IMG/VR virus record: IMGVR_UViG_3300009703_000118
Coordinates: 1-22,732 of that record
Source of the DNA: a virus
Strand: one strand, 5' to 3'
DNA length: 22,732 bases
Shown: positions 1,588 through 6,278 of the stretch, one piece after another
How the letters are laid out: each line of letters starts with the position of its first letter
How positions within the stretch are numbered: the stretch's first letter is position 1
Notes under the pieces: generated by a model
Seen by the model: the letters and a program-made list of their open reading frames with translations, nothing else
What the model was told of the DNA's origin: nothing
The model's database searches: none
Translations under genes and position numbers: made by a program

Positions 1588-1907
1588 AAACCCAAGTCAC
1601 CGACACCAGCATAGCGGCATATCACAATCACGGAAGCCTATCGGCCCAGCAGCGGAACCTGATTCTTCAATTCATTAGCGACAAGGGCGGGGATTGGAGT
1701 ATCGGGGAGGTGGCGGCGGAACTTGAGCTACAAAAATCCACTGTCTCAGCCAGAATCAACGAACTTTTGAACGATACCTGCCAACTGGTCAAATTCCCAA
1801 AACGGAAGGACAGAATCAGCAGGATTACGATCAGGCCGGTTGGCTTACCGATGGGGCGGGGGAGTTGTTTGGGGGTGGGGAATAATGCGCTTCTTAAGTT
1901 TGTTTAG
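1584..1907 (+). CDS. Small winged-helix DNA-binding protein
   Basis: Residues about 20-80 read as a winged helix: QRNLILQFISDKGGDWSIGE, then AAELELQKSTVSARINELL, then a basic wing (FPKRKDRISRITIRP). This is a MarR/IclR-like wHTH as seen in many small phage proteins between the replication and recombination genes. The start shares ATGA with the preceding stop. Its last 23 bases overlap the start of the methyltransferase (1885), and the last residues may be forced by that overlap. Target and function are unknown; a small transcription regulator is the natural guess. Confidence 0.6.
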   Translation: MKTQVTDTSIAAYHNHGSLSAQQRNLILQFISDKGGDWSIGEVAAELELQKSTVSARINELLNDTCQLVKFPKRKDRISRITIRPVGLPMGRGSCLGVGNNALLKFV

Positions 1908-3684
1908 TGGCATAGAGGCCGCAAGCGTAGCGTGGTATCCGTTAGGGTGGGAGTGCGTCGGAGTGGCAGAAATTGAGCCATTCCCATGCAAAGTTCTGGC
2001 GCATCATTATCCAAACGTACCTAATCTGGGAAGCGTAACTGAAATAACAAAAGAGCAGATTGAAAGGCTTGGACATATCGACTTGGTTGTGGGTGGTTTC
2101 CCGTGCCAAGATTTATCAATTGCAGGAAAGCGTAAAGGATTGCGTAATGATGACGGAAGCCCAACAAGATCTGGTCTTTTCTACACCGCCATGCAAATCG
2201 TCGAGTGGGCAAACCCAAGATGGACTCTTATCGAAAATGTCCCAGGATTGTTCTCATCGAGAAATGGAGCAGATTTTGCATCAGTGGTTGGAGAAATGGC
2301 TGGGTGTGAATTTAGCGTACCGAGAGACGGGTGGAGAAATTCCGGTTGTGCAGTTGGCCGCATCGGATTGGTCGAGTGGGTCACTTTGGATGCACAATAC
2401 TGTAGAACACCGCTCTACCCTAGAGCCGTCCCGCAACGAAGAAGGCGTGTGTTCGTTGTCAGAGATTCTGGAAACTGGCAAGGTAGAAAGCCGTTATTTT
2501 TTGACGAAGAAAGCCTGCGCGGGAATCCTCCGCCGAGCCGAGAAAAGGGGAAAGAAGTTGCCGGAACAATTAGCAAAGGCTCTTTTACGGGTGGCGCAGG
2601 GGGTAGACCAGAAGGAGCCGCCGGAAACCACTTCATCTCAACCAGCAAAGAATATGGAGGAGAGGGCGGACTTCCTCTGCCAGAAATGCGGGGAGGAGAA
2701 CTCGGTAACATGGTGGCCGATGTGCGAATGGTGCGGACAGGAGCAAGTGTAGGAGCATCTGGAAACTACTTCATCCCAAGCGGAACTTGCAGCGGCAAGC
2801 AAACATTCGGAACGCTAATGGCTAATTGTGGGGAAAAGCAATGGCTTGGCAATCAGGAGGCGTTAAGCGGCGATTATCATGTCTTTGCCCTCGCCGGAAA
2901 CACAATCGACCGCAAACCGGAGAACGGCGGGAATGGCGCTGGATTCGATGGATCAGGAACTAGTTACACGCTGACGAAGGTTGATAGGCATGCCGTGGAT
3001 TATTCGTTCGATTCCATGTCTAGCAATAGCATGAAATCTAGCAACCCAGACAGCGGATGCAATGAGGTTGAGGTTGCTAAATGCCTAGATACGTCGAGAG
3101 GATTGGACCCAACTTGTAATCAAGGTGGTATGGCGGTAGCTTTCCAGCAAAACACACGGGACGCGGGAGCTCTATCTGCATCGCCGGGGATGAAGCAGCA
3201 GAACTATATCGCTTTCGGTGTCGGCGAAAAGCCAGAAGTAGCCCATTGCTTGAGGTCTGGTGCCAGCAAAGCGGATAAGCATGAGAGCACGACTTATGTA
3301 GCCGCTCAAGCGTTTAATCCTGTATCTGCAACATTAAAAGGGTCAGGAAAAGGGAGCGGAACGCCTGACCCATCAGACGGAAACGGACATTCCCTTGTTT
3401 CTGCTTACCGGACCAATGCTGCCGGACAAATAAACGATCAGGAGGGAATTGCTGCCGCGCTGAACACTCAGACTGACCCGTGCGCTCAAATACTGCATCA
3501 GGATATGTCAGTCCGCCGATTAACCCCCACAGAATGCGCCAGACTCCAGGGATTTTCAGATTCGTACCTAAGTCAAGTTCCCGGTGCATCCGACACGCAG
3601 ATGTACCGAGCGTTAGGAAATTCAATGGCTGTAAACGTCATGCAACTACTTGGTCAACGAATTCAGATGGTGGATGATCTATGA
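1885..3684 (+). CDS. C5 cytosine-specific DNA methyltransferase (Dcm family)
   Basis: Transfers a methyl group from S-adenosylmethionine to C5 of cytosine in DNA. Visible motifs, numbered from ATG 1885: motif I FSGIEAAS (7-14), motif IV with catalytic Cys GGFPCQDLS (70-78), motif VI WTLIENVPG (113-121), motif VIII PQRRRRVFVV (183-192), motif IX RRLTPTECARLQGF (544-557) and motif X RALGNSMAVNVM (575-586). At 599 aa it is much longer than the usual 330-450, because roughly residues 210-540 form a Gly/Ser-rich target-recognition region made of degenerate repeated modules. An in-frame upstream ATG at 1840 only adds residues encoded inside the previous gene and lacks the family N-terminus. A second frame inside this gene also has recognisable coding content (see 2390-2752). 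Likely protects phage DNA from restriction. Confidence 0.9.
   Translation: MRFLSLFSGIEAASVAWYPLGWECVGVAEIEPFPCKVLAHHYPNVPNLGSVTEITKEQIERLGHIDLVVGGFPCQDLSIAGKRKGLRNDDGSPTRSGLFYTAMQIVEWANPRWTLIENVPGLFSSRNGADFASVVGEMAGCEFSVPRDGWRNSGCAVGRIGLVEWVTLDAQYCRTPLYPRAVPQRRRRVFVVRDSGNWQGRKPLFFDEESLRGNPPPSREKGKEVAGTISKGSFTGGAGGRPEGAAGNHFISTSKEYGGEGGLPLPEMRGGELGNMVADVRMVRTGASVGASGNYFIPSGTCSGKQTFGTLMANCGEKQWLGNQEALSGDYHVFALAGNTIDRKPENGGNGAGFDGSGTSYTLTKVDRHAVDYSFDSMSSNSMKSSNPDSGCNEVEVAKCLDTSRGLDPTCNQGGMAVAFQQNTRDAGALSASPGMKQQNYIAFGVGEKPEVAHCLRSGASKADKHESTTYVAAQAFNPVSATLKGSGKGSGTPDPSDGNGHSLVSAYRTNAAGQINDQEGIAAALNTQTDPCAQILHQDMSVRRLTPTECARLQGFSDSYLSQVPGASDTQMYRALGNSMAVNVMQLLGQRIQMVDDL
2390..2752 (+). CDS. Overlapping-frame protein inside the methyltransferase gene (ACAGILRRAEKRGK family, C-terminal zinc ribbon)
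   Basis: The +1 frame relative to the methyltransferase is open for 230 codons (2060-2752). Its downstream part reads CSLSEILETGKVESRYFL, then KKACAGILRRAEKRGKKLPE, a pattern I recognise from stand-alone phage hypothetical proteins found with C5 methyltransferases. It ends with a CxxC...CxxC pair (LCQKCGEENS, MCEWCGQEQV) that looks like a zinc ribbon. The ATG at 2390 (120 aa) is chosen because the family-like part begins shortly after it; its Shine-Dalgarno is weak (GAGTGGG about 9 bases upstream), so it might be made by reinitiation or a +1 frameshift. Function unknown. The same bases in the main frame encode motif VIII and the start of the recognition region, so both frames appear constrained. 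Confidence 0.5.
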   Translation: MHNTVEHRSTLEPSRNEEGVCSLSEILETGKVESRYFLTKKACAGILRRAEKRGKKLPEQLAKALLRVAQGVDQKEPPETTSSQPAKNMEERADFLCQKCGEENSVTWWPMCEWCGQEQV

Positions 3685-4010: not shown

Positions 4011-6278
4011 ATGTCGTATCAAGAATTCATAGCAAGTAAAGCAATCGTCCCAGTTATATCAGGGTTTGATATAAACGCTGATTTGCTCAGTAAACATTTA
4101 TTTGATTTCCAGCGCGTGATTGTAAAGTGGGCATTGAAGCGTGGCAGGGCGGCTATATTTGCGGACACCGGCCTCGGCAAAACACTAATGCAAACGTCAT
4201 GGGCTGATGAAGTATGCAAACAAACATCCGGTAACGTGATGATATTCGCACCCCTCTGCGTTGCACATCAAACGGTTGGTGAGGGTGAAAAGTTTGGAAT
4301 CGCAATCAATTATTGCCGGTCGCAAGATCAAGTAAAACCTGGAATCAATATCACTAATTATGAAATGATGGATAGCTTTGATATGTCCGTATTTTCGGGC
4401 GTGGTGATGGATGAAAGTTCGATCATCAAAAACCGAGATGGGAAAACTCGAAACTTCATTATTGATGCGTGTAAAGATATTCCGTATAAATTAAGCTGCA
4501 CCGCTACACCATCACCTAACGACTTTATGGAGTTGGGTAATCAAGTCGAATTCCTTGGAATTATGACTATGACAGAAATGCTTGCGACTTACTTTATCCA
4601 TGATGGTGGCGAGACATCAAAATGGAAACTGAAAGGGCATGGCAAGTATAAGTTTTGGGAATGGATGGCAACTTGGTCCGTATGCATCCGCAACCCAGAG
4701 GACTTAGGGTTTAATGGGGACAAGTACAAATTACCACCGTTGAATGTAGTCGGTCATGTGGTGGAGTCAAAAGCAAAATTCGGGCTATTTGCTGATGTTG
4801 CGGTTGGAATGTTGGAGCGCAATCAAGCAAGGAGAGAGTCGATTGAGGATAGGGTTGTTAAATGCGCTGAGTTGGTCAATTCCAGCGTTGAGCAATGGGT
4901 TATTTGGTGTCACTTGAATGATGAGTCCACTATGCTGGCGAAAGCTATTCAAGGGTCTGTTGACATAAAAGGCTCGGATAGTATTGATAAAAAAGAATCT
5001 GCTATTGACTCGTTTACTGATGGGTCATTGAGGGTGCTTATCACGAAGCCAAGCATCGCAGGATTTGGGATGAATTGGCAGCATTGCCACAATACAGCGT
5101 TTGTCGGGCTTTCAGATAGTTGGGAGCAATACTATCAGGCAATTCGTAGATTCTACCGATTTGGACAAACACACATCGTTAATGTCCATGTGATTAGCGC
5201 AGAATCAGAGGGTGCGGTAGTTGAAAATATCAGACGTAAAGAAAGCCAAAATAGGCAGATGGGAGAGACGATGGTGGAGCATATGAAAACCTCATTGCAA
5301 AAAGAGATAAACGGAACCAAAGCGCAGAAGTCGGAATATATTCGTGATGTTGTCAAAACCAATGACTACGAGTTGCACCTTGCTGATTGTGTAGATTTGG
5401 CTAGTGAGATTGAAACCGGAACAGTTGATTACACGATATTTAGCCCGCCATTTGCAAGCCTTTATACATACTCTAATTCAGATCGAGACATGGGTAACAG
5501 TAATAGTCATAGCGAATTCTACGAGCATTTTAGATATTTGGTAGATGAAATGTTTAGGATTACCCGCGATGGTAGGTTGCTGTCATTCCATTGTATGAAT
5601 CTGCCAACAAGCAAACAGAATGATGGATTTATCGGAATTCGTGATTTTAGAGGCGAGTTAATTCGGATGTTTCTTGATGCAGGATGGATATATCATTCTG
5701 AGGTTTGCATTTGGAAAGACCCCGTAACTGCGATGCAGCGCACTAAAGCATTAGGGTTGCTGCACAAGACCATCCGCAAAGATTCCAGCATGAGTCGGCA
5801 AGGAATCGCTGATTATCTGGTGACGATGCGGAAGCCCGGGCAGAATGATAAGCCAGTCAGACATTATCGCGACGCAGATGAGTGTCATGCGGCTTGCAAA
5901 ACAGAAGGTATGGATTATGAGGTCGAATCCGAGAATATATTGGAGGTCGGTTTGTGGCAAAAATATGCGAGTCCGGTATGGATGGATATAAACGCATCCA
6001 GAACCCTCAACTATCGGGATGGTCGCGCTGATGATGATGAAAAGCACATATGTCCGTTGCAGCTTGATGTAATCGAGAGGGCTATGCACTTATGGACCGC
6101 GCCGAATGATTTGGTATTTAGTCCGTTTGCTGGTATCGGAAGCGAGGGGTATACGGCGGTCAATATGGGACGAAAGTTTATTGGTAGCGAATTAAAGCCG
6201 AGTTATTTTGAGCTTGCCAAGCAAAATATGGCAGATGCGAAAAAGCATACTGGCGACTTATTTGCGGACGCAGGATGA
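4011..6278 (+). CDS. Fusion of SNF2-like helicase/ATPase and N4/N6 (beta-class) DNA methyltransferase
   Basis: The N-terminal half is a superfamily 2 helicase: Walker A ADTGLGKT (51-58), Walker B-like VVMDESS (131-137, DESS in place of DEAH), motif III SCTATP (162-167), and a C-terminal RecA domain ending in QAIRRFYRFGQ (about 376-386). The C-terminal half is an amino-methyltransferase: motif IV SPPF (about 478-481) precedes the AdoMet-binding motif FSPFAGIGSEG (about 703), the order of the beta class, making N6-methyladenine or N4-methylcytosine. AAGGG lies 5 bases before the ATG. No nuclease motif is visible, so this is not a self-contained restriction enzyme; translocation-coupled methylation or anti-restriction is inferred. 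Comparable phage helicase-methylase proteins exist. Confidence 0.85.
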   Translation: MSYQEFIASKAIVPVISGFDINADLLSKHLFDFQRVIVKWALKRGRAAIFADTGLGKTLMQTSWADEVCKQTSGNVMIFAPLCVAHQTVGEGEKFGIAINYCRSQDQVKPGINITNYEMMDSFDMSVFSGVVMDESSIIKNRDGKTRNFIIDACKDIPYKLSCTATPSPNDFMELGNQVEFLGIMTMTEMLATYFIHDGGETSKWKLKGHGKYKFWEWMATWSVCIRNPEDLGFNGDKYKLPPLNVVGHVVESKAKFGLFADVAVGMLERNQARRESIEDRVVKCAELVNSSVEQWVIWCHLNDESTMLAKAIQGSVDIKGSDSIDKKESAIDSFTDGSLRVLITKPSIAGFGMNWQHCHNTAFVGLSDSWEQYYQAIRRFYRFGQTHIVNVHVISAESEGAVVENIRRKESQNRQMGETMVEHMKTSLQKEINGTKAQKSEYIRDVVKTNDYELHLADCVDLASEIETGTVDYTIFSPPFASLYTYSNSDRDMGNSNSHSEFYEHFRYLVDEMFRITRDGRLLSFHCMNLPTSKQNDGFIGIRDFRGELIRMFLDAGWIYHSEVCIWKDPVTAMQRTKALGLLHKTIRKDSSMSRQGIADYLVTMRKPGQNDKPVRHYRDADECHAACKTEGMDYEVESENILEVGLWQKYASPVWMDINASRTLNYRDGRADDDEKHICPLQLDVIERAMHLWTAPNDLVFSPFAGIGSEGYTAVNMGRKFIGSELKPSYFELAKQNMADAKKHTGDLFADAG

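Follow-up and report, generated by a model that had tools for sequence, protein, structure and literature searches.

In the C5 cytosine DNA methyltransferase (C5-MTase) M.EcoHK31I, the small polypeptide is encoded within the gene of the large one, in another reading frame. M.EcoHK31I and M.AquI are both known as C5-MTases made of two polypeptides, and only motif IX resides in the small polypeptide of M.EcoHK31I (PMC3404938, citing Lee et al. 1995). In the same account, two subunits of M.AquI make up one C5-MTase (PMC3404938), as we propose for the pair described here. The split of M.AquI falls in the variable region and separates motifs I-VIII from motifs IX-X, whereas the pieces described here overlap in different frames. 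A further out-of-frame protein inside a phage methylase gene is the ShiLan domain, a hidden HNH endonuclease (PMC11855218). ShiLan is a sporadic homing insertion that encodes HNH; in contrast, none of the close MTase relatives sampled was without the +1 gene that we describe, which overlaps catalytic motifs and lacks HNH. It is rare for a long same-strand overlap to be maintained in phages whose hosts belong to different bacterial phyla.

The window analyzed here is the whole of a 22,732-nucleotide stretch of viral DNA (IMG/VR record IMGVR_UViG_3300009703_000118, positions 1 to 22,732, one strand). Its C5-MTase, read in what we call frame 0, shows PCQ, ENV, PQRRRR, RRLTPTECARLQGF and LGNS in translation, RRLTPTECARLQGF being motif IX, which is read in frame 0 and not in the +1 protein. 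The same bases are open in the +1 frame from a TTG at 2060 for 230 codons up to a stop codon at 2750-2752, or for 234 codons from stop to stop (2048-2749). In synonymous reshufflings of the window MTase gene, a +1 run of at least 234 codons arose in only 1 of 5,000 (mean longest run, 83), so the open frame is not explained by chance alone. An earlier reading made from the letters alone (the sequence-only reading) had reported this ORF and the catalytic motifs of the enzyme, as well as the peptides CSLSEILETG...ACAGILRRAEKRGK and a CxxC...CxxC end in the +1 translation, and all of these are present as described (Table 1). Downstream of the MTase, positions 4011-6278 encode a SNF2-type helicase fused to an N4/N6 DNA methylase domain.

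Table 1. Features of the MTase locus in window coordinates
Feature	Position	Strand	Basis
C5 cytosine DNA methyltransferase, frame 0, ATG to stop	1885..3684	+	PF00145 E 8e-42, TIGR00675 E 4e-41; motifs I-VIII, IX, X
Putative Shine-Dalgarno AAAGGA, 7 nt before ATG 2147	2134..2139	+	Sequence; ATG plus SD enriched in relatives
Predicted overlapping +1 gene, 201-aa product, ATG 2147 (alternative ATG 2150)	2147..2752	+	+1 conservation, fourfold-site constraint, stop depletion
Conserved +1 core LSxILExxxVPxRYFLSxKACxGILRRAxxRGKxLPxxLxxAL	2456..2617 (approximate)	+	Helices, high-confidence prediction; canonical-segment homology
CxxC-x(n)-CxxC zinc-ribbon-like C-terminal tail of +1 protein	2660..2749 (approximate)	+	Common only to window and L104

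The overlap proved to be widespread. A tblastn search with the +1 protein, whose pattern the sequence-only reading had recognized from phage proteins, retrieved 130 phage records (135 with a Firmicutes query), including P1 and phages of Vibrio, Mycobacterium, Streptococcus, Ruminococcus, Akkermansia and Caulobacter as well as a cyanophage; the hosts belong to Pseudomonadota, Actinomycetota, Bacillota, Verrucomicrobiota and Cyanobacteriota. In the first six records inspected, P1 dmt included, the +1 protein lies inside the MTase coding sequence in frame +1 without a separate annotation. We then compiled loci from viral scans and one bacterial-genome scan that used the +1 protein as seed, and from a further viral scan that started from MTase N-termini only. 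In 336 of 336 usable loci the +1 ORF lies within a C5-MTase ORF, always in relative frame +1, and PCQ, ENV and QxRxR occur together in 302 of these 336 frame-0 ORFs. The loci are related, and these counts are therefore not independent. The +1 ORF was present in 80/80 loci of the MTase-seeded set, which comprises the MTases most similar to that of the window and shares some contigs with the other sets. Since 498 phage records match the MTase N-terminus and only about 130 carry the +1 core, the +1 gene marks a large subgroup of phage C5-MTases, not all of them. Among C5-MTases collected by PF00145 from 27 host genomes, canonical enzymes lack the core and phage-like ones carry it. The relatives had been taken for stand-alone hypothetical proteins, an idea that did not survive: none of the 244 loci found by the +1 protein lacked an overlapping MTase. 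The family phrog_16143 matches 86 of 149 +1 proteins and hence holds members of the +1 family; its label, DNA methyltransferase, names the host gene rather than the +1 protein, and the overlap goes unmentioned. A literature search, with most subscription papers outside its reach, found no description of the MTase/+1 overlap.

We next consider selection on the two frames. Divergence at fourfold-degenerate third positions, followed along the MTase in the MTase-seeded set, was 0.69 to 0.71 before the overlap, about 0.5 over 2065-2289 and 0.24 to 0.39 in most bins of 2290-2514, with one bin of sparse alignment at 0.61. It fell to 0.09 over 2515-2559 and 0.22 over 2560-2604, and past the +1 stop it was again 0.69 to 0.72, so that the synonymous constraint is confined to the overlap. 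Consistently, +1 stops occur at 0.02 to 0.08 per codon outside the overlap and at about 0.001 inside. The Firmicutes set gave the same picture, with the 5' edge of constraint near window position 2240. Within the core, the usual excess of third-position substitutions is gone, and position 1 of the main frame is as variable as position 3, unlike in the flanks.

Such similarity in the +1 frame could be a mere shadow of protein conservation in frame 0, with no second protein at all. Synonymous shuffles of the MTases do still yield weak matches, 429 of 1,620 reaching a +1 profile score of at least 20 bits, so some of the similarity arises from frame-0 conservation alone. However, in 81 of 81 loci none of the 20 shuffles reached the score of the real sequence, the fourfold sites of the core are nearly frozen, and amino acid identity in bin 2515-2559 is 0.75 in the +1 frame versus 0.34 in frame 0, which leaves this explanation very improbable. 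We regard as similarly implausible that the constraint acts on nucleic acid, that is, on RNA structure or a DNA site within the gene; elements of this kind could by themselves suppress synonymous variation, but the variation tracks the +1 codon pattern, +1 stops vanish only up to the +1 stop, and substitutions among the +1 residues stay protein-like although the DNA has diverged greatly. It is thus nearly certain, judging from these comparative patterns, that the same bases encode two proteins and that the +1 protein is kept by selection across phages of several bacterial phyla. The long-maintained dual coding proposed in the sequence-only reading is borne out, with homologues keeping the +1 frame free of stops and synonymous variation strongly suppressed, and the phenomenon is broader than first supposed.

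The start had originally been placed at ATG 2390. This codon sits well within the constrained region, and because constraint reaches far upstream of it, the ATG at 2147 or 2150 behind AAAGGA is the better candidate. In relatives, start signals are enriched: of the 77 Firmicutes loci, 76 have an ATG with a Shine-Dalgarno match directly after a +1 stop, compared to 24 expected from synonymous shuffling. Outside the Firmicutes loci the excess was two- to fourfold in the viral and genome sets, the combination being present in 56/77 loci of the genome set (14 expected) and 51/80 of the viral set (17 expected). The +1 protein therefore likely runs from an internal ATG with its own putative Shine-Dalgarno sequence (at 2147 in the window) to position 2752. 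Alternatively, ribosomes might be programmed to shift out of frame 0, which would fuse the N-terminal half of the MTase to the +1 segment rather than produce a separate protein. Given the homology of the core described below, switching frames close to motif VIII would put the segments back in canonical order, and four loci (L045, L117, L144 and L336) have the core in the frame of one half of the MTase. Yet both the constraint and the loss of stops set in at least 60 codons upstream of motif VIII, and the Firmicutes loci have a +1 stop just before the conserved ATG with its Shine-Dalgarno sequence; we thus consider frameshifting improbable.

The zinc ribbon noted at the C terminus is present in the window protein as a ribbon-like tail. 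As a family trait it did not hold up: the tail recurs in one other locus only, the +1 ORF of a Sphingomonas genome locus (L104), which makes it an add-on, and searching with the tail alone found no relatives.

The nature of the +1 protein emerged from its C-terminal core. LSxILExxxVPxRYFLSxKAC is homologous to RLKDVLExxVDEKYYLSDK, a segment which in canonical C5-MTases belongs to the enzyme's own frame and follows motif VIII, lying between this motif and the target-recognition domain. With hhalign, the core scored 94.5% against the canonical segment (73 loci) and 90% against full-length enzymes, aligning at the right place, and controls with reversed or shuffled sequence did not exceed 0.5%; the canonical segment served as a search seed, and the sequences compared then came from retrieved loci. 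Profile comparison further showed that phage-type MTases of the +1 group have an unrelated frame-0 linker where the canonical segment would be. The +1 protein is thus best regarded as a C5-MTase piece now residing in another frame, and this homology, as judged from profiles, is new here.

Other searches returned little. Pfam and NCBIfam gave no match, HNH included, in any of 149 +1 family members, and no relatives were found among PDB sequences. The PADLOC MTase_II model matched up to 6 of the 149 members, a result that did not recur in ten tested singly, and this identity was rejected. AlphaFold2, run with 149 or 35 rows, was confident only for the small helical core and gave low confidence for the N-terminal half. 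Foldseek and VIA-align searches against PDB and BFVD found nothing beyond the +1 family itself and no known fold, the best structural match of the predicted core being sigma domain 2 at a Z of 3.7, which is not meaningful. The N-terminal half resembles the +1 protein of PHRRDR-type MTases (see below) with an E of 5e-15, which is not decisive since both overlap homologous frame-0 motifs.

By analogy with the M.EcoHK31I pair, we consider it reasonably probable that the +1 gene specifies a small companion subunit of the MTase, internally started and dual-coded with the enzyme. The second protein would have its own ATG and Shine-Dalgarno sequence within the MTase message, dock on the MTase where the canonical post-motif-VIII segment would sit, and there complete or tune target recognition, while the overlap would keep both subunits co-transcribed and co-inherited. 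Like M.EcoHK31I, the proposed pair would be a C5-MTase of a large and a small polypeptide. The division of motifs speaks against a simple parallel: the small polypeptide of M.EcoHK31I supplies motif IX, whereas the +1 protein lacks it, motifs IX and X of the window being in frame 0 and the +1 protein carrying the post-motif-VIII segment. It may thus represent a second kind of frame-overlapped small subunit, by analogy with M.EcoHK31I and the PHRRDR-type loci. Motifs I-X all remain in frame 0, so catalysis has no obvious need of a second subunit. The suggestion that the +1 protein is a partner modulating target recognition, already made in the sequence-only reading, is one that we infer as well, and it is strengthened by the finding of a canonical homologue of the core adjoining the target-recognition region.

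A different possibility is that the +1 gene is real and its product independent of the enzyme, merely locked to the MTase gene, for example, a basic protein that binds DNA and regulates the early operon, or a counter-defense protein such as one blocking McrBC-like modification-dependent restriction. The core is indeed basic, its net charge averaging +4.5 over 30 aa, and predicted to be helical, it survives where the MTase frame is interrupted, as in Mycobacterium phage Thibault, and the P1 dmt operon is controlled by C1. The strict tie to one MTase subgroup, the lack of stand-alone copies among the 244 loci and the fact that the core has a homologous segment in MTases all argue against independence, which we hold to be unlikely, though less so than frameshifting.

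Extending the companion-subunit reading to all these phages is more tentative, and we put it at somewhat short of an even chance: the loci might form an unannotated, widespread class of frame-overlapped two-subunit phage C5-MTases, spanning several bacterial host phyla, in which the post-motif-VIII segment moved to the +1 frame and became an internally initiated subunit setting or switching target recognition. The second gene is almost never annotated, even in the textbook phage gene P1 dmt, and may be the missing partner subunit of the enzyme. Cloning and assay of phage MTases would change, because mutations or codon changes in the overlap hit two proteins, and the +1 gene makes it possible to test directly if pieces of an enzyme that moved to another frame can turn into subunits.

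Several other loci show variations of gene structure. In L045, L117, L144 and L336 the MTase reading is split between frames, through an indel, sequencing error or recoding, and the +1 core persists. In Thibault (L372:1320-3121) an inserted HNH endonuclease gene interrupts the MTase and separates motif VIII from the +1 core, and the core is annotated as gp104. Loci with an interrupted or switched MTase frame are too few and too uncertain to choose between a subunit and an independent protein.

Phage C5-MTases of the PHRRDR type (L381:1979-2686, L383, L385:2045-2878 and L468-L547) contain a different long +1 ORF, with LPTPxAxD repeats and LNPxWVExLMGFP, that holds motif IX. Among 55 such loci in which both were recognized, with motifs called by simple patterns, the ORF was in frame +1 in 55/55, and frame 0 lacked motif IX in 55/55 and carried motif X in 50/55. 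This split, with motif IX in +1 and motif X in frame 0, matches the division in M.EcoHK31I, and the PHRRDR-type overlap is apparently common and unannotated. Finally, MTases of Streptococcus, Lactococcus and Enterococcus phages contain a 161-aa +1 ORF (L384:1892-2374) that ends in CSLSDILEENVPETFFLSAEKVNNLI, bears a closer resemblance to the canonical segment and has matches in 177 phage records.
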